NCBI GenBank assembly: GCA_947290775.1
Contig: CAMYPM010000015.1
Span: 1 to 40,011 of the forward strand
Direction: 5' to 3'
From: an uncultured Bacteroidales bacterium
Lineage (GTDB): Bacteria; Bacteroidota; Bacteroidia; Bacteroidales; Porphyromonadaceae
DNA length: 40,011 bases
Every line of letters begins with the position of its first letter. The stretch's first letter is position 1. The notes beneath the pieces were generated by a model, which worked only from the letters and a program-made list of their open reading frames with translations, had not been told where the DNA came from and made no database searches. The translations under genes were made by a program, and so were the position numbers. Shown here in pieces: positions 32,088 through 40,011 of the stretch.

Positions 32088-34403
32088 TTAGAATGGATAG
32101 CCAATAGCCAAATGTATTCCAAGGGCATCCTTAAATTTGGGAATATTGTAGTACCCCCTGCGGCTCGTCTTGTAAGGAAGGTGAAGCCCGATACCGGCAT
32201 CCAAACGAATCACGAAGAAGCCCAAGTCGTAGCGCAGCCCTAAGCCTGTACCCAAAGCGATTTGATCAAGGAAATCCTTGAAGTCGGCTACCTCGCGTAG
32301 CGATCCATAGGGTCGATAGGGATCCTTATGGATCAGCCATATATTACCGGCATCAAGGAAAAGAGCACCATGCAGATTACCGGCGAGACGCATACGCCAC
32401 TCGGCATTCATCTCCAACTTGAACTCACCGGTTTGATCAATAAATGCATACTTACCCTCCATAGGACGATATGCCCCGGGTCCTACACTACGTACCGTAA
32501 AAGCACGAATACTATTTGCGCCACCCACATAAAACTGCTCACTATATGGAGCCACTTTCATATTACCAAAGCTGTAGATAACTCCGGTTGCCAAGCGCGC
32601 AGCTACCGTCTGATTACGATTGATCGTGTACGTATAACGGAAGTCAGCGGTAAACCGCACAAACTGAGCAAAAGGAACACTAAGTAGCGTTTTCGTATCG
32701 TTGTAGCGTTTACCGGCAGCCGCATAGATTCCATTCAATAGATTACCCGCTTCAGAGATGGAATATTCCATCCAAATCTTATGAGATCCATGATCTTCAA
32801 ATACATTATTGTAGGTGTACACATATCCTAAGCTGGGGATAAACTGACTCCTCAGACTCAACCCCAAGGCAGGATTCTCCTTCACGATTTCCTTAAATAG
32901 GTCCGAACGATTGGACAAGCGGTTGAACTGCAATCGGAAAGGAGTAACCACATGCTTATTCGATTGATTTACATCAAAGGTATAGGATATAGAGGCACCT
33001 GCGGAAAGCATGCGGAAATACCCGGCACGATTGAGAATACTGGCAGAGAGTGTCAAGTCGGTAGCTGTAGGAAATGGGAGCACATTATCCTTCACTCCGG
33101 GGAGAAAGATAGCAGGAGCCTGCAAGCCTATATCAATACCAAACTCGTAACTATTGATCAATGCGGCACGACCCTCCGCATTATTCCACGACTGCCACTC
33201 ATAGGAGCCATGAATACTGCCGGAGAGCGTTTCACCACCTCCGAGCAAATTTTGTCGTGCCAAGGAGAATGTGAGCGCAGGACCTAAGAAGTTGTTACTC
33301 TTTACCTTGAAAGCAGTTTCCAATGAGGTATCCCAAAGGCGATCCAACGTAGAGTTTACGTATAGATCCAGTACATGATTCACCGTATCGATCGGAGTAA
33401 AGACAAACTCCGTATAAGCAAATACGCCCAGTCGTGCCAACGCCTCGCGGCTCCGCATCTCAGCACGCTCCGAATAGATATCACCGGGACGCAGTCGCAT
33501 ACGACGCCCTATTACACCACTACGTACCTGCGGGCGTCTTCCGTTATAGCGGATGAGAATATCATTAAATTGGGTACTATCCTTCATCGTATCACTGCGA
33601 AAGCCATTGATCGTAAAAACTACGTTCCCTATTGTCCAAGGCGTAAATACAGACTCGGGGGTGCCCTGCTTGATACGAGCTTTCAGGTGTACTGCATTAT
33701 CCCTGTGCAGCGTATCGGCTTCATAATAGATTACATCCGGAGTATAGTAATAAAAGCCCCTATTGCGGAGCATCGTACTGATAAGCTGTCGGTCTTCCAA
33801 AAGACGGCCCAGATTAAACTGATCTCCTACTTGGAGCTTAGAAAAAAGGGAATGATCAAACTGCACGCCTCCCACCAAAGAGATAGGGGGAAGGAACTCA
33901 ATAGAGTCGTATAAGTAAGGCTTTCCCATGTCTATCGTATAAAAAACACGGGCTTGCAGAGAGTCTTTTAATGTAGCTATGCTATCCCTAACGGAGGCAG
34001 CAAAGTAGCCATGCTCGCGCAAAGCATTTTTAGCATTGATACTTCTAAGATCAGGATTCACATTACTAAGCAAAACTGGTTCGGAAGCAAACATCTTATA
34101 AATGCGCTTACCTAATGCCGTAGAGTCGTTTACATAGCGATTGTACACCCACAGACCAAAAGGAAAGGGGATTCTCATACGGGCACTTCCAAAAAGAGAA
34201 TTATTTGGTTTTACATTAATGGCGCTTTCAGCGGCAGATAGAGCACGCTGCCCGGCAGACGAACCATCTTCATTGATAATTTTCGTCTTACCTATTCCCA
34301 CATAGAGCTGCTCTCCTTCCGGAAGATTCTTGGTTGTGGAGCATCCTACTGCTCCACACAGCAGCAAAACCATTAGTATATAGAAAGGAACCTGCTTCTT
34401 CAT
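32088..34403 (-). CDS. tamL: TamL, outer-membrane BamA/TamA-like lipoprotein
   Basis: A 771-residue protein with lipobox GAVGC (Cys21) then STTKNLPEGEQLYVG, the typical TamL start. The first half contains POTRA-like domains (for example residues about 150-235 and 255-350); the C-terminal ~380 residues are an Omp85 beta-barrel with FYVGGANSIRAFTVRSVGPGAY, the conserved substrate-loop region, and a final Phe (AIGYPF). In Bacteroidetes TamL replaces TamA and works with TamB in the envelope. Its ATG overlaps the tamB stop (ATGA), so the two are coupled. Confidence 0.92.
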   Translation of the reverse strand: MKKQVPFYILMVLLLCGAVGCSTTKNLPEGEQLYVGIGKTKIINEDGSSAGQRALSAAESAINVKPNNSLFGSARMRIPFPFGLWVYNRYVNDSTALGKRIYKMFASEPVLLSNVNPDLRSINAKNALREHGYFAASVRDSIATLKDSLQARVFYTIDMGKPYLYDSIEFLPPISLVGGVQFDHSLFSKLQVGDQFNLGRLLEDRQLISTMLRNRGFYYYTPDVIYYEADTLHRDNAVHLKARIKQGTPESVFTPWTIGNVVFTINGFRSDTMKDSTQFNDILIRYNGRRPQVRSGVIGRRMRLRPGDIYSERAEMRSREALARLGVFAYTEFVFTPIDTVNHVLDLYVNSTLDRLWDTSLETAFKVKSNNFLGPALTFSLARQNLLGGGETLSGSIHGSYEWQSWNNAEGRAALINSYEFGIDIGLQAPAIFLPGVKDNVLPFPTATDLTLSASILNRAGYFRMLSAGASISYTFDVNQSNKHVVTPFRLQFNRLSNRSDLFKEIVKENPALGLSLRSQFIPSLGYVYTYNNVFEDHGSHKIWMEYSISEAGNLLNGIYAAAGKRYNDTKTLLSVPFAQFVRFTADFRYTYTINRNQTVAARLATGVIYSFGNMKVAPYSEQFYVGGANSIRAFTVRSVGPGAYRPMEGKYAFIDQTGEFKLEMNAEWRMRLAGNLHGALFLDAGNIWLIHKDPYRPYGSLREVADFKDFLDQIALGTGLGLRYDLGFFVIRLDAGIGLHLPYKTSRRGYYNIPKFKDALGIHLAIGYPF

Positions 34404-37400
34404 TTCGGTATCTTTGTGGTAAGGGAATCGATAGGAGTTTCCTCACGGTTGAGTGTATCAACAGGAGGTACTGCGATCGGTGTAGTGGACAAGCTGTCAA
34501 TCGGTGCTGACTTAATCTTTCGCCTTTGAGGACGGAATAAGTCGCTCAACTTATACAAGCTGCGACGTAATATGTAGCTCGCACCTGTTTCCGTAACCAA
34601 ACCTTCCAAAATATTATCGTTGTTTCGCTTATGGAATAGACTCATATACTGGCTTCCGGACTTATCTATACGATACTCGAGTGTAACGTTGTCGATAAAT
34701 GTTTGCTCATAATTGGTAGGTAGGTTACCTGCTGCAACCTTTCCGCCTATTACGAAGCGCACCCGATCGTTGAAGAATCGCCTGCTGAAGCTATACGTAT
34801 AGTCAGTATAAACGGAGCCGGAGCCGGTATTATGCAGTTCCATGCCCACATTGAGGTCTGTCCCTTCGAGGAACTTACCGGTCAGGTTGTTCAATTCACT
34901 TACTGCAAAGCCACTAAGAATACGCTGCATGCTCATCTCCGACGGATCTGTCGCCAGGAATGCACCGCTCACCATAAGCGCCATAGCCTGCTTTCCGCGC
35001 TCTTCCTTACTCATGGTAGCAAGTGTATTCTGTACGCCCAAGTCATCCGGCGCTTCCAAATCAAAAGCCAAATCTATCTTAGAGAGATCTTCACGAGCCA
35101 CAATAAGCACATCAAAGTCAACCTTCCGCGAAGTACCCGCTTCATTTACGTCTGCACGCACCCTATTGACCGCCTTGAAGTTGATGTAAGGATTGTCAAT
35201 TGGTCCATTCCATGCCACATAACTCTCCTTATCAATTACAAAATCTTTACGTCCTACAACCGGGAACTTATAGCGCACTTGTCCTCCACCACTCAAGTTA
35301 TAGCGTCCTGTCAGGTTCATAACTCCGAAAGGCGGTGACTGGAAGCGCAGATCCCCTCCGCCTATAACCTTCACATAATCCTGATGTCCACCGGATAGAT
35401 CTACCCCCAACTGAACGGCAGGATCTATGTGTATATTAAGTGCTATGTCGGCACTACCCGGCGAAGGCAAATCGACCGCAGGCTCTTCCACAAAGAGTGT
35501 ATCGGAGAAGTCTTTAAACACGACCACCCCGGCCATATTATCTGTTGCTTTAAGCGCACTACCGGCATATACATAGGTTAAGTTTGTTCCCCCCAATATA
35601 TTCAAGGAGCCACGTATCACCGGCTTTGATACATTACCTCGCAGCGTAATATGAGGACTGGTAATCAAGCGGCCATAAACCATCTGTCCACGGCTCTGCT
35701 TACTATCAATCAACTCTACCTCATCCCCATCTACTCGAAGATTAGCCTGCATAGCTTCCGGCCCGAAGAGCGTAAAATCTCCATTGACCGAAATTGGTGT
35801 ATGCTTATCACTATTCCGCAAACAGAAATTTTTGAGGTGTAGCTTACTGTTTTCAAAGCGCAACGGCTCTGTATCGATAGAGAATGTTTCGCCTACTTGC
35901 GGCAAATGCACTGCGGCATCCTTCAGGTTGAGTGCACCATTGAGTCGCATATACTTAGGGGTACCTGTCGCTTGTATATCGCCCTCCATAGAGCCATACA
36001 GCGAAGCTAAATCAGCTCCTAAGAACGGATTCGCCAAATCAAGCGGAAATTTATTGACGTGTGCACTCGCCTTTATAGGAGAGTGTTCATCGGCTGTGTC
36101 GTAGCGTCCCTCTATCTCCAAAGCCGGCTCTCCATTGTGGCTTAGATAGGCTGAGATATAATGCTTTGTTTTATCGTGCGGCTCATAGAAAAGCGCTACA
36201 CTGACGTTACCCAAAGGCTCATGATTATAGGTCAAGTCATTGACCGACACATCCCCTACCGCACGAGGAAGCTGCGTATTTGAGTCACGCTCTAAGCGTA
36301 CATCCACGAAGGAAAGTCCACCGAGACCTTCCAGCCCTAAGGCATTCTCCAGTATGCCGAGTTGCAGCTTCTGTATCATCAACTTGATTTGATCATGACC
36401 ACTTTCGGTAGACTCCTCGCTCTTCATGATCAATTGTCCTCCCTTCTCCTCCGTCAGTTGCAGATCCGCCTTGAGCGTTTGCTCCTTGGGGTTATAGAAA
36501 AGTGCATTTTGTGCATTGGGAAGTAACTTAATACCGGACACGATTACCGGCTGCGGCTTAAAGGAAAGCCCAAATCCCTGCTCATTACGGAAAGCCAATG
36601 CCGCAAGCGAATAGCTCGTTTGTCCCTTTTCCCTGTATTGGGCAGCCAAGTCAACGGAGTTAAGGTCGGTAGAGGCCTCAACATCTATATTGAAGGGGTG
36701 CTGCCCTCGGTAAGAGGACTTTTGTACGGAAGCCTTTAGCTTTAGCAAGATGGGCGTGCCATTATCGGCTTGCTCAAAAGCAGGACTGAGCGGCTTCGTA
36801 CCCGGCCACTTAAAATAAGTAGCGGCTTGCTGCACACTTTCGGTAAGACGATCCTCCGGAGTTACCTCCTTGGATACCAACAGAAGGCCCACCGAGTCTA
36901 TTCGTGTCGTATCCTGACGGAAGTTAAGTGCTGTAGCCTTCAAGTGCATACGCTCCTGCGGGCGATTCACAAAGTCTAATTGCACACGCTCTACATACAT
37001 GCGTTCATCACGCAGGAAGGGAGTCACAGGATTGTTTTCTCCCATTTCGAAATGCACTTCCGCAAACGGCATAGCATGTGCGATAGCGGTCATTTGGTTA
37101 TTACCTGTCGTATCACTCAAAAGGCCACCAGCGATTTGCCCCACCGAACTTACTTTTTGTATAAGGCTATCCAAAGGCTCAGCAATGTGCGCATTGAGCT
37201 TTAAGTCATCGGAGAAGAGAGCGACCCTACCTGACGTGCTGTCCAATCCGGCGGTAAGGGATAAGGGGAAACTGCGGGGAGGAAGCCCTTGCATATAATA
37301 CTGCAAGCTATCGCTCTGCCAACTTAATGCATGATGTTGTTTAAAGTCTGACTCTACATCTACATGAAGATCCGTGCGCAGGGATAATGTATCCTGAGTA

Positions 37401-39268
37401 ACGCCCAACTGAGAGAGGGAGAGCGAATCTATCTGCCCGCTTAGCGAAGCTTTTAGTAAGCCATTCTGCAGCGTACCGCTCAATAGCAAATCGGCTTGGG
37501 CCCAGTTCATGCCACTTTGAAGTGCCAAGGAGAGATCTTCATGATCCATTAGCCCATCGAGTTTGATCTTTTCTATTCGGTTGCCTTTGTACCAAAGCTC
37601 CGTAACCTCCCCTTTGATAGAGGCTTTACTGCGCCCTGATAGAAAATCAAAGCCCGCCCCTTCTGCCGATAAAGACAAATCGGCTACTCCAATAGAATCT
37701 TGTGGCAAAAAGTCAAGCACATTAAAGCGATGCGCTTGAACGGAGGCACTGTAGTGTTGCCTGTGCGCTGCATAGTGCCCTCGGATATTGAGCTGCCCAC
37801 TATGCGGTGCCGCCAAAGAGGCGTCTGCCGTGTAAGCCTGTCCTACTAAGTTTGCTTTTACCTTTAACTTCGTATTGCCGGGGATGGCTACACGCTGTTG
37901 CAAACTCGGCACATAGGTGCTGATCACTTGAGCTGCATGAGGCTGCAAGAGCGCCTCTAAGCTCACCTGAGCATTTCGCTTGCGGGGGGAAGTAAGTTGA
38001 CTTGCCTTTCCCTTCAGGTCGAGATTTACAAGTCCCTTTCGCTGCAATTTGAGGCGGTTAATCTCCATCAAATCAAAGTTTCCGAAGGCATCTACATCTA
38101 TACTAAAGAGCCCCTTAGGAATAGGACCAAGTAAATCGCTCGTTCGCTGCCCGGCAAAATAATAGAGATCTTCATCACTGAGCGTACCCTCCAGCAAAAG
38201 CTCTGCCACATGCGTTGTATCACCGGAGAAAAGAGCAAAGGGGAGCTTTATCCTGCCCACCAGGTTACTTCCGGGGGTACGCAAGGCAATATCCTTAACT
38301 TCGAGTACTCCGTCCTCCATTTTCAGGCGACCTCTGAAGCGATCAAGCGAAGCGCCGCTCCGTTCGTCCATGCTTAAAGAGATAAAGTCACCCGAAAGCC
38401 TACTACCCTGCTGCTCAAAGTCGGCAATCTCTACCTGCAAGCTTTTAGCATGCAGGTCACTAAAGTTCACCCGATCAGTAGGCGCTGCGGTTAGATCGTT
38501 GCTATAGTACGTTTCTCCACTATTGACCTTAATGCGCTTGCTTGTAATGAGCGTATTAGCCAGATCAATAGAGAACACTTCTACCTGAGCCTCCTGCATG
38601 TCAGCACGCACATAGAGATCACCATCCGGCATTTCAAGATCGAAACGAACCGAATCGAGAAGTATTCGATTAACGTCAATCTTCCATTTTACCGGATTCG
38701 ATTGGGTTGAATCGCTGCTCTCTCGTGCAAAATACTTGAAGAATCCCTCCCGATAACTCAATGACCCTACATCAACCCGCTGCTTCTGCAAATCTACCGA
38801 CAGTGGGCCAAGGGCCAGTGCTTCAGATGAAGCCGATATGACGGAAGTGCTATCCTCTGAGGGGATAAATACCCGCACGCGCTCCAACTGTAACTGATGT
38901 GACTCAATACGACTATTCAGCAGCGAAAAGGGGGATAAGGTCGTTTGGAGACTGCCCACCCCCACGAGCGTATCGCCTGTAGGCTTGACCACGGATACCT
39001 CTTCTAATTTCAGACTGAGCGGAAAGCCTAACCGAAACTTCCCCACCTCTATCTTCATATCTCCCGAAGCGTTCACCTCTTGAAGTACTTTGCGAAGTAT
39101 AATGCGCTGAACGGGAGGCGTATAGAGTAGCACAAAAAGAAGAATAATAAGGAGGAAGAGACTTAAGACCACCCAACGGAGTACACGTACTACACGATGC
39201 GTACTTCGCTTTTTCTTGGGCGACGGGGCTTCCTTCCCGTTCACTTCCTTCTCCTTATCTGCTTCCAT
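34400..39268 (-). CDS. tamB: TamB, translocation and assembly module / lipid-transport-like protein
   Basis: A 1622-residue envelope-spanning protein. A basic N-terminus is followed by one membrane anchor (about residues 30-49, VVLSLFLLIILLFVLLY). The very long middle is made of repeating beta strands typical of AsmA/TamB-like groove proteins, and the C-terminal ~450 residues are the DUF490/TamB domain (GRLITSPHITLRGNVSKPVI, then FAVSELNNLTGKFLEGTDLNVGMEL). TamB partners with TamL at the outer membrane; roles in protein insertion and phospholipid transport are proposed for the family. It overlaps tamL by 4 bases. Length is in the range of Bacteroidetes TamB. Confidence 0.93.
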   Translation of the reverse strand: MEADKEKEVNGKEAPSPKKKRSTHRVVRVLRWVVLSLFLLIILLFVLLYTPPVQRIILRKVLQEVNASGDMKIEVGKFRLGFPLSLKLEEVSVVKPTGDTLVGVGSLQTTLSPFSLLNSRIESHQLQLERVRVFIPSEDSTSVISASSEALALGPLSVDLQKQRVDVGSLSYREGFFKYFARESSDSTQSNPVKWKIDVNRILLDSVRFDLEMPDGDLYVRADMQEAQVEVFSIDLANTLITSKRIKVNSGETYYSNDLTAAPTDRVNFSDLHAKSLQVEIADFEQQGSRLSGDFISLSMDERSGASLDRFRGRLKMEDGVLEVKDIALRTPGSNLVGRIKLPFALFSGDTTHVAELLLEGTLSDEDLYYFAGQRTSDLLGPIPKGLFSIDVDAFGNFDLMEINRLKLQRKGLVNLDLKGKASQLTSPRKRNAQVSLEALLQPHAAQVISTYVPSLQQRVAIPGNTKLKVKANLVGQAYTADASLAAPHSGQLNIRGHYAAHRQHYSASVQAHRFNVLDFLPQDSIGVADLSLSAEGAGFDFLSGRSKASIKGEVTELWYKGNRIEKIKLDGLMDHEDLSLALQSGMNWAQADLLLSGTLQNGLLKASLSGQIDSLSLSQLGVTQDTLSLRTDLHVDVESDFKQHHALSWQSDSLQYYMQGLPPRSFPLSLTAGLDSTSGRVALFSDDLKLNAHIAEPLDSLIQKVSSVGQIAGGLLSDTTGNNQMTAIAHAMPFAEVHFEMGENNPVTPFLRDERMYVERVQLDFVNRPQERMHLKATALNFRQDTTRIDSVGLLLVSKEVTPEDRLTESVQQAATYFKWPGTKPLSPAFEQADNGTPILLKLKASVQKSSYRGQHPFNIDVEASTDLNSVDLAAQYREKGQTSYSLAALAFRNEQGFGLSFKPQPVIVSGIKLLPNAQNALFYNPKEQTLKADLQLTEEKGGQLIMKSEESTESGHDQIKLMIQKLQLGILENALGLEGLGGLSFVDVRLERDSNTQLPRAVGDVSVNDLTYNHEPLGNVSVALFYEPHDKTKHYISAYLSHNGEPALEIEGRYDTADEHSPIKASAHVNKFPLDLANPFLGADLASLYGSMEGDIQATGTPKYMRLNGALNLKDAAVHLPQVGETFSIDTEPLRFENSKLHLKNFCLRNSDKHTPISVNGDFTLFGPEAMQANLRVDGDEVELIDSKQSRGQMVYGRLITSPHITLRGNVSKPVIRGSLNILGGTNLTYVYAGSALKATDNMAGVVVFKDFSDTLFVEEPAVDLPSPGSADIALNIHIDPAVQLGVDLSGGHQDYVKVIGGGDLRFQSPPFGVMNLTGRYNLSGGGQVRYKFPVVGRKDFVIDKESYVAWNGPIDNPYINFKAVNRVRADVNEAGTSRKVDFDVLIVAREDLSKIDLAFDLEAPDDLGVQNTLATMSKEERGKQAMALMVSGAFLATDPSEMSMQRILSGFAVSELNNLTGKFLEGTDLNVGMELHNTGSGSVYTDYTYSFSRRFFNDRVRFVIGGKVAAGNLPTNYEQTFIDNVTLEYRIDKSGSQYMSLFHKRNNDNILEGLVTETGASYILRRSLYKLSDLFRPQRRKIKSAPIDSLSTTPIAVPPVDTLNREETPIDSLTTKIPK

Positions 39269-39275
39269 TGCAGTG

Positions 39276-39283
39276 CAAAGGTA
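39276..39283 (-). promoter_or_regulatory. Possible -7 element for tamB-tamL
   Basis: TACCTTTG on the minus strand ends only 7 bases before the tamB ATG, so the mRNA would be nearly leaderless. The same octamer precedes trhP and topA. No matching -33 element seen. Confidence 0.35.
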
Positions 39284-39404
39284 AGCGATTTTATTGTCTC
39301 TTTTATCTTTGAGAATCCTTTACTATATCCCTTTCCGGCGACTCTCGTATAGAGAGAAAGAGAGCGTTCAATACTTGCCGCTTATTGGATAGAAACTTTG
39401 TAAG

Positions 39405-39492
39405 AAAAGGCTATAGAGTTTTCACAAAAAGGCTACAGGGTTTCCAAGAAAAGGCTATAGGGTTTTCAGAAAAACCCTATAGCCTTCTGTCG
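39405..39492. repeat. 22-bp tandem array with terminal inverted unit, site 3
   Basis: Four 22-base units start at 39405, 39427, 39449 and 39471. Three read AAAAGGCTATAGAGTTTTC, AAAAGGCTACAGGGTTTCC and AAAAGGCTATAGGGTTTTC; the fourth is AAAACCCTATAGCCTT, the inverse of the third. Units 3 and 4 therefore form a perfect 16-bp stem (39451-39466 with 39471-39486) around CAGA. The array is upstream of tamB in a stretch (39269-39680) with no gene. Confidence 0.75.
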
Positions 39493-39611
39493 AATAGTAT
39501 AGAAAGAAAGATCCGACTCCCTACCCTCTCCCGCTACCCATCACTATTAGAATGAGGGCAAAGCAGCAGTAGATGCCACGTGTGCTGCAAAATAGGCGAT
39601 AAGGGAGATAG

Positions 39612-39641
39612 GCATCCTTAGAGGTCGCAAGGATGCTTTTT
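39612..39641 (+). terminator. Plus-strand intrinsic terminator with no known gene upstream
   Basis: GCATCCTT (39612-39619) and AAGGATGC (39629-39636) form a perfect 8-bp stem with a 9-base loop followed by TTTTTAT. No plus-strand gene lies upstream in the intergenic region, so it may end antisense or small RNA transcription, or insulate the RNA gene that follows. Confidence 0.55.
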
Positions 39642-39686
39642 ATACCCTCTTACAATGCAAATATTCGGATAGTGCACTATACAATA

Positions 39687-39717
39687 GTTGCTATATCATA
39701 TTTAATATGTATCTTTG
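39687..39717 (+). promoter_or_regulatory. Promoter of the putative structured RNA
   Basis: GTTG (39687-39690), a 19-base AT-rich spacer, and TATCTTTG (39710-39717) match the Bacteroidetes promoter well. The expected start is near 39724. Confidence 0.65.
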
Positions 39718-39723
39718 TTGCAC

Positions 39724-40003
39724 AAGGAAAAGTGATCTTTAAAACAGATTGAAAGCATCGGATGGGGTTCCGCCCTACAAAACGTCACTTAAAGTGCGTA
39801 ATATATGCCACACCGGTTTTTGGGAAACTCATCAAATATTTACGATGCCTCGAGTTACTGACAGCGGTCAATGGCGTGCCGGTCTCGTAGCCGGATTACA
39901 GAAATCGTTGTAGGACTCATAATCCTTACATTCGGGGTTTCTACAAATCAAGGTGTGGCACCCATAAGAAAAGCGGATACGGCTTCGGCTGCATCCGCTT
40001 TTT
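39724..40003 (+). ncRNA. Putative structured non-coding RNA (6S-like candidate)
   Basis: About 280 nt between a promoter (39687-39717) and a terminator (39969-40005), without a convincing ORF. Complementary segments are: AAGTGA 39730-39735 with TCACTT 39785-39790; TGCCACACC 39806-39814 with GGTGTGGCA 39952-39960 (perfect 9 bp, about 137 nt apart); inside it GAAACTC 39824-39830 with GGGTTTC 39935-39941; and GGATTA 39893-39898 with TAATCC 39920-39925. A long closing stem with internal loops and a defined promoter and terminator is the plan of regulatory RNAs such as 6S RNA, and the Bacteroidales-1 RNA described from this order has similar bounds. I did not see the conserved cores of RNase P RNA, tmRNA or SRP RNA. 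Identity is therefore unproven. Confidence 0.6.
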
Positions 40004-40005
40004 CT
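39969..40005 (+). terminator. Intrinsic terminator of the putative RNA
   Basis: AAAAGCGGAT (39969-39978) pairs with ATCCGCTTTT (39993-40002). The inner part closes further (CGGC-TTCG-GCTG) on a UUCG tetraloop, and a T-run follows. Very stable. Confidence 0.85.
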
Positions 40006-40011
40006 ATTTTA

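Follow-up and report, generated by a model that had tools for sequence, protein, structure and literature searches.

A divergent Bacteroidales-1 RNA gene, probably encoding a 6S-type RNA, in a bacterium of the Bacteroidales

Bacteroidales-1 is listed as a structured RNA of Bacteroidales in a 2010 table, in which its columns for cis-regulatory and switch function both carry a question mark (Weinberg et al., 2010, PMC2864571). The corresponding Rfam family, RF01693, is described with the words "6S-Bacteroidales RNA suggested". Manual re-annotation of three Porphyromonas gingivalis strains in 2018 gave one Bacteroidales-1 RNA in each (PMC5771137). In Bacteroides thetaiotaomicron, which is of the same order as the organism studied here, a 6S RNA and two classes of pRNA were reported from dRNA-seq (PMC7366714). 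The name Bacteroidales-1 occurs 0 times in the main text of that report, and the B. thetaiotaomicron 6S RNA is equated with RF01693 because of Rfam's own description only; by that description the two are probably the same family. Two other families have a presumed 6S role. These are classical 6S RNA (RF00013) and 6S-Flavo (RF01685), the latter a Bacteroidetes family of the same 2010 table (PMC2864571). Here we describe a locus at the right end of a DNA stretch of 40,011 nucleotides (the window), for which we obtained the gene anatomy, the family membership, a covarying structure, and the finding of one match per genome in relatives.

Gene anatomy and family membership

A complete RNA gene, with promoter, core, and terminator, was confirmed on the plus strand at the right end of the window. 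The sigma-ABfr consensus of Bacteroidetes is TAnnTTTG near -7 and TTTG near -33 (PMC7366714). The window has a -33 element TTG at 39688-39690 and a -7 element TATCTTTG at 39710-39717, both on the plus strand, and together they fit this consensus. The good promoter of the original prediction is therefore present and is of the Bacteroidetes type. Its use in this bacterium is probable. A generic scan of the Escherichia coli type, which works without a Bacteroidetes consensus model, listed neither the promoter nor the terminator of the RNA gene. In Flavobacterium psychrophilum the -7 box lies at -12 to -5 (PMC9723704). Because the -7 box of the window was set at the same distance, transcription is predicted to start at about 39722, and the transcript has a length of about 284 nt, a small correction to the approximately 280 nt first proposed.

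The predicted transcript begins with an 84-nt 5' leader (39722-39805) containing GATCTTT at 39734-39740. It is followed by the core (39806-39966), which is closed by a stem, P1, whose 5' arm TGCCACACC (39806-39814) and 3' arm GGTGTGGCA (39952-39960) are exact complements 137 nt apart, as had been noted before. The motif GGGAAACTC at 39822-39830, consisting of (near-)invariant columns among 37 copies, includes the 5' arm of P2 and runs into the central bubble (ATCA...). The conserved TTCGGGGTTTC at 39931-39941 forms the 3' edge of the central bubble and the 3' arm of P2 in the same alignment. The gene ends in an intrinsic terminator, a hairpin at 39969-40002 capped by C(UUCG)G, after which the sequence is rich in U up to about 40010. 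The claim of a UUCG-loop terminator thus holds. Long-range pairs had been proposed within about 280 nt; the conserved structured part of the RNA is 39806-39966.

Scanning with Rfam covariance models had been suggested together with the original prediction, and the scan was positive. RF01693 matched 39806-39966 on the plus strand over the full model (1-179) with 66.0 bits against a gathering cut-off of 60 (E = 1.3e-8), and it was the sole match at curated cut-offs in the whole window. A permissive scan of 39270-40011 gave eight matches up to E = 1. RF01693 led these by a wide margin, and the remaining seven (Srn266, STnc50, and others) each scored below their own cut-off and were taken as chance. 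Neither RF00013 nor RF01685 had a match at the locus (39270-40011) up to E = 1. The core contains all four motifs of the Rfam consensus, namely GGGAAACUCAUCA, AAUGGCG.GCC, GGAUUACA, and UUCGG.GUUU. The host falls in Bacteroidales, a placement made by protein similarity only (Omp85). The leading guess of a 6S RNA or a Bacteroidales-1 type RNA was borne out by a family above its curated cut-off that is itself described as a suggested 6S RNA; both guesses thus name the same family and do not compete. The locus is a divergent member of the known Bacteroidales-1 family, and as such it is an ordinary gene of a kind already described. It has the full-length model match and the motifs of that family, but differs in its score (66 bits, compared with up to 192 among the compared copies) and in its predicted 84-nt leader.

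Conservation among relatives

The ten best matches of the window Omp85 in the nearest bacterial family are 53-61% identical. Protein similarity suggests that the host may be near Porphyromonas. Of the 38 genomes in the nearest family, 36 have a single RF01693 match (E <= 0.001). Thirty-two of these matches exceed the cut-off, and four are just under it (57.6-59.9 bits). The two genomes with no RF01693 match are the smallest ones (1.2 and 1.4 Mb). Of 149 genomes sampled from another family, 138 also had one match under stricter filters. One match was present as well in 13 of 18 genomes that had been chosen by motif-pattern hits and are hence motif-enriched. RF00013 had no match in the 38 nearest-family genomes, while its control was positive in 5 of 14 named genomes (four over the cut-off), including E. 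coli and Bacillus subtilis. Therefore, no other recognizable classical 6S RNA fills the role in these genomes, and a single copy without another 6S RNA is what was seen in relatives. RF01685 also had no match in the 38 genomes; its first control was negative everywhere, and a later control was positive in one of five genomes (a Psychroflexus), with two other flavobacterial and two Bacteroidales genomes giving no match.

The sequence 39720-40006 folds with -88.6 kcal/mol (z = -3.7; 1 of 200 shuffles was as low), and the core alone has z = -3.2 (0 of 200 shuffles as low). All 36 nearest-family copies and the window copy were aligned with MAFFT (37 copies), and the RNAalifold structure was derived from the same alignment. 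Its elements are a closing stem, a second stem of the GAAACUC/GAGUUUC type, a large bubble, and an apical stem with interruptions; 18 of its 29 pairs have compensatory changes. Covariation in orthologues had also been proposed as a check, and it was positive when assessed by pair counting (not R-scape). After one short-range pair (columns 170-183) was dropped, 28 pairs were counted, with 93.7% of cells paired and two-sided changes in 18 of the 28. Two-sided changes numbered 154 cells compared with 51.8 in shuffles, the covariation score was 0.429 compared with 0.203, and 0 of 500 shuffles reached the observed value on any of five covariation measures, although shuffling does not remove relatedness among the copies. 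Sliding the partners by 1-3 columns lowered pairing to 30-53%, a control that somewhat favors the structure because this was derived from the same alignment.

All eight counted pairs of P1 show two-sided changes; at columns 12-207, for instance, 21 copies have G-C and 16 have A-U. This stem is fully paired in the window. P2 cells are 98.2% paired; this stem is kept by sequence conservation, without two-sided change. The RF01693 structure is thus supported by covariation with relatives, and the window RNA has the closing stem, large central bubble, and apical stem that make up the 6S layout.

The original prediction saw no protein in the transcript. Two ATG frames of at least 25 aa are present, with 42 and 47 aa. 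The start site of the 42-aa frame lies in the leader and is used by 0 of the 36 other copies. The 47-aa frame starts at ATG 39871-39873, within the conserved AAUGGCG motif, and all 37 copies share this ATG without change. The frame that follows it varies from 7 to 87 aa across the 37 copies, 20 of which reach at least 25 aa. Relative to this ATG, a conserved GGATT further downstream occurs in all three phases (phase 0 in 5, phase 1 in 12, and phase 2 in 20 copies). Because of this variable length and phase, a conserved small protein was rejected, and the ATG is part of an RNA motif rather than a start codon. Neither frame is conserved as a peptide, in agreement with the earlier reading.

Promoter elements were compared in the same 37 copies. 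All 37 have a perfect TAnnTTTG in the 105 nt that precede the core (2.1 expected from resampled sequence), and a TTG starting 20-25 nt 5' of the -7 box was present in 36 (6.0 expected), the sole miss being L210. The TAnnTTTG box was also found in 38 of 41 further Bacteroidales copies (3.0 expected); these comprised all 13 from the motif-pattern genomes and, of the 30 best-scoring loci of the second family, in which 138 genomes matched, the 28 that were not yet included. Our own strict terminator pattern was found in 22 of the 37 copies, and the miss in L217 is a contig end. Under this pattern, L198 and L202 have no separate terminator hairpin downstream of the core. Leader and 3' tail are complementary in these two copies and might extend the closing stem.

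The 5' leader and the upstream region

In other bacteria, 6S RNAs can arise from longer precursors. The predicted leaders of the 37 copies range from 13 to 84 nt, about a six-fold spread within one family, and that of the window is the longest. GATCTTT occurs in the window leader and, among its five nearest relatives, in the leaders of four, whereas the fifth (L202) has GGTCTTT; in these six leaders the element begins 9-17 nt from the predicted start. GATCTTT was found in 0 of the 31 other leaders. The five nearest relatives were ranked by Omp85 score (L198, L202, L203, L205, and L210, from genomes G553, G549, G551, G563, and G561, respectively). By Omp85 identity alone, the partial matches G568 (59% over 343-771) and G556 (57% over 337-771) are also near the top, and their leaders are without the GATCTTT element. 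The six leaders with GATCTTT or GGTCTTT belong to kin, and shared descent alone could explain the element. When L198 and L202 are folded as single sequences, their leaders pair with sequence past the core.

The leader is presumably removed from the RNA. An unlikely reading is that in the clade of the window the long leader with its conserved GAUCUUU adds a function of its own, making the transcript a dual-purpose 6S precursor. Such a leader might act as a processing signal, as a second, base-pairing sRNA freed on maturation, or in the control of folding.

Several sequence features occur between the RNA gene and its neighbor tamB. On the minus strand, 32088-39268 carries overlapping genes for TamB (PF04357) and an Omp85/POTRA protein (PF01103, PF07244), apparently an outer-membrane assembly pair. 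A TACCTTTG box at 39276-39283 on the minus strand is only 7 bases ahead of the tamB start codon, which suggests that the 5' leader of tamB may be very short. Three imperfect direct repeats with 22-nt spacing (AAAAGGCTATAG...GTTTTC) are located at 39397-39486, and they end in an inverted repeat whose two 16-bp arms (39451-39466 and 39471-39486) are perfectly complementary and separated by 4 nt. The plus strand has a second TATCTTTG box at 39304-39311, which lacks a -33 TTG. A hairpin resembling a terminator is found at 39612-39641 on the same strand (GCATCCTT, a 9-nt loop, and AAGGATGC, then TTTTTATA). Box and hairpin could possibly belong to another small transcript, about 325 nt long, that lies directly upstream of the RNA gene. 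The upstream and leader DNA (39270-39805) had no match in the 38 related genomes, in a search that had no positive control and shows little.

Proposed function and alternative explanations

We consider it very probable that the locus is a Bacteroidales-1 6S-type RNA gene of a bacterium near Porphyromonas, whose product would serve as an RNA polymerase decoy released by pRNA synthesis. This reading was reached because of the layout of the RNA, the single match per genome, the absence of classical 6S RNA, and the published evidence for 6S RNA and pRNAs in Bacteroidales. The RF01693 match, the promoter kept in all 37 copies, and the covariation also speak for it. Against it stand a score only 6 bits over the cut-off, the four nearest-family matches just under that value, the two genomes of that family with no match, and the negative search for -7 mimicry described below. 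The mechanism is carried over by kinship from B. thetaiotaomicron (PMC7366714). Expression and pRNAs are reported for the B. thetaiotaomicron RNA (PMC7366714); for the window gene, expression, polymerase binding, and pRNA synthesis are predicted by analogy. The housekeeping sigma factor would transcribe the RNA from TTG and TATCTTTG, and the UUCG hairpin would end transcription. The RNA would then fold into the closing stem, large central bubble, and interrupted apical stem, resembling melted promoter DNA, and would bind the holoenzyme of RNA polymerase and the housekeeping sigma factor as an open-promoter decoy. When abundant, it would lower transcription. The RNA would be released once polymerase had used the 5' side of the bubble as template for a short pRNA.

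The window RNA probably has its general layout and presumed function in common with classical 6S RNA, but the RF00013 model fails to recognize either the locus (E up to 1) or any sequence in the 38 related genomes. A presumed 6S role would likewise be common to 6S-Flavo, whose model finds nothing at the locus (E up to 1) or in the same 38 genomes. These missing matches at the locus agree with an alternative that we regard as improbable, in which the gene encodes a Bacteroidales-1 RNA that is not a 6S RNA and has another protein partner or a base-pairing role. The word "suggested" in the Rfam description also leaves room for it. Mimicry of a -7 box by the 3' strand of the bubble is not supported, which fits the same alternative: on average, the best matches to a -7-like element were no better than those in shuffled sequence (mean P was 0.60 for the 37 copies and 0.92 for the 41 others). 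The window bubble has TACATTCG, which is -7-like in 5 of 6 positions (P 0.07). A role outside the 6S group is opposed by the layout of closing stem, bubble, and apical stem, by the single match per genome, by the absence of RF00013 matches from the 38 nearest-family genomes, and by the 6S RNA with pRNAs reported from a Bacteroides (PMC7366714).

That this RNA is a cis-acting leader or trailer of a neighboring gene is extremely improbable. The RNA is about 0.45 kb from the tamB start, the next gene to the right lies outside the window, and the 2010 table has a question mark for cis-regulation (PMC2864571). However, tamB is on the opposite strand with its own TACCTTTG box, and the RNA is bracketed by a promoter and a terminator. 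The window TamB was compared with the flanking DNA (up to 1.5 kb on each side) of 30 of the 36 nearest-family copies and had no match there, as expected of a free-standing RNA. When 71 copies were considered (these 30 and 41 others), there was one weak match (E 8e-4, L154, outside the nearest family), and a conserved neighborhood was rejected. A chance structure or a decayed copy, to which the low score (66 bits) and the longest leader of the 37 might point, is just as improbable given the conserved motifs, the fully paired closing stem, the presence of both promoter and terminator, and covariation counts that speak against chance.

The 6S-type reading concerns a locus of low surprise, a divergent new copy of a known family. 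The variable length of the leaders is a small, testable oddity, and the predicted 84-nt leader is the one unusual point of the window copy. The analysis locates this divergent copy along with the promoter and terminator that belong to it. In bacteria near Porphyromonas, the family gains support from covariation among the 37 copies compared, which also show a consistent promoter.
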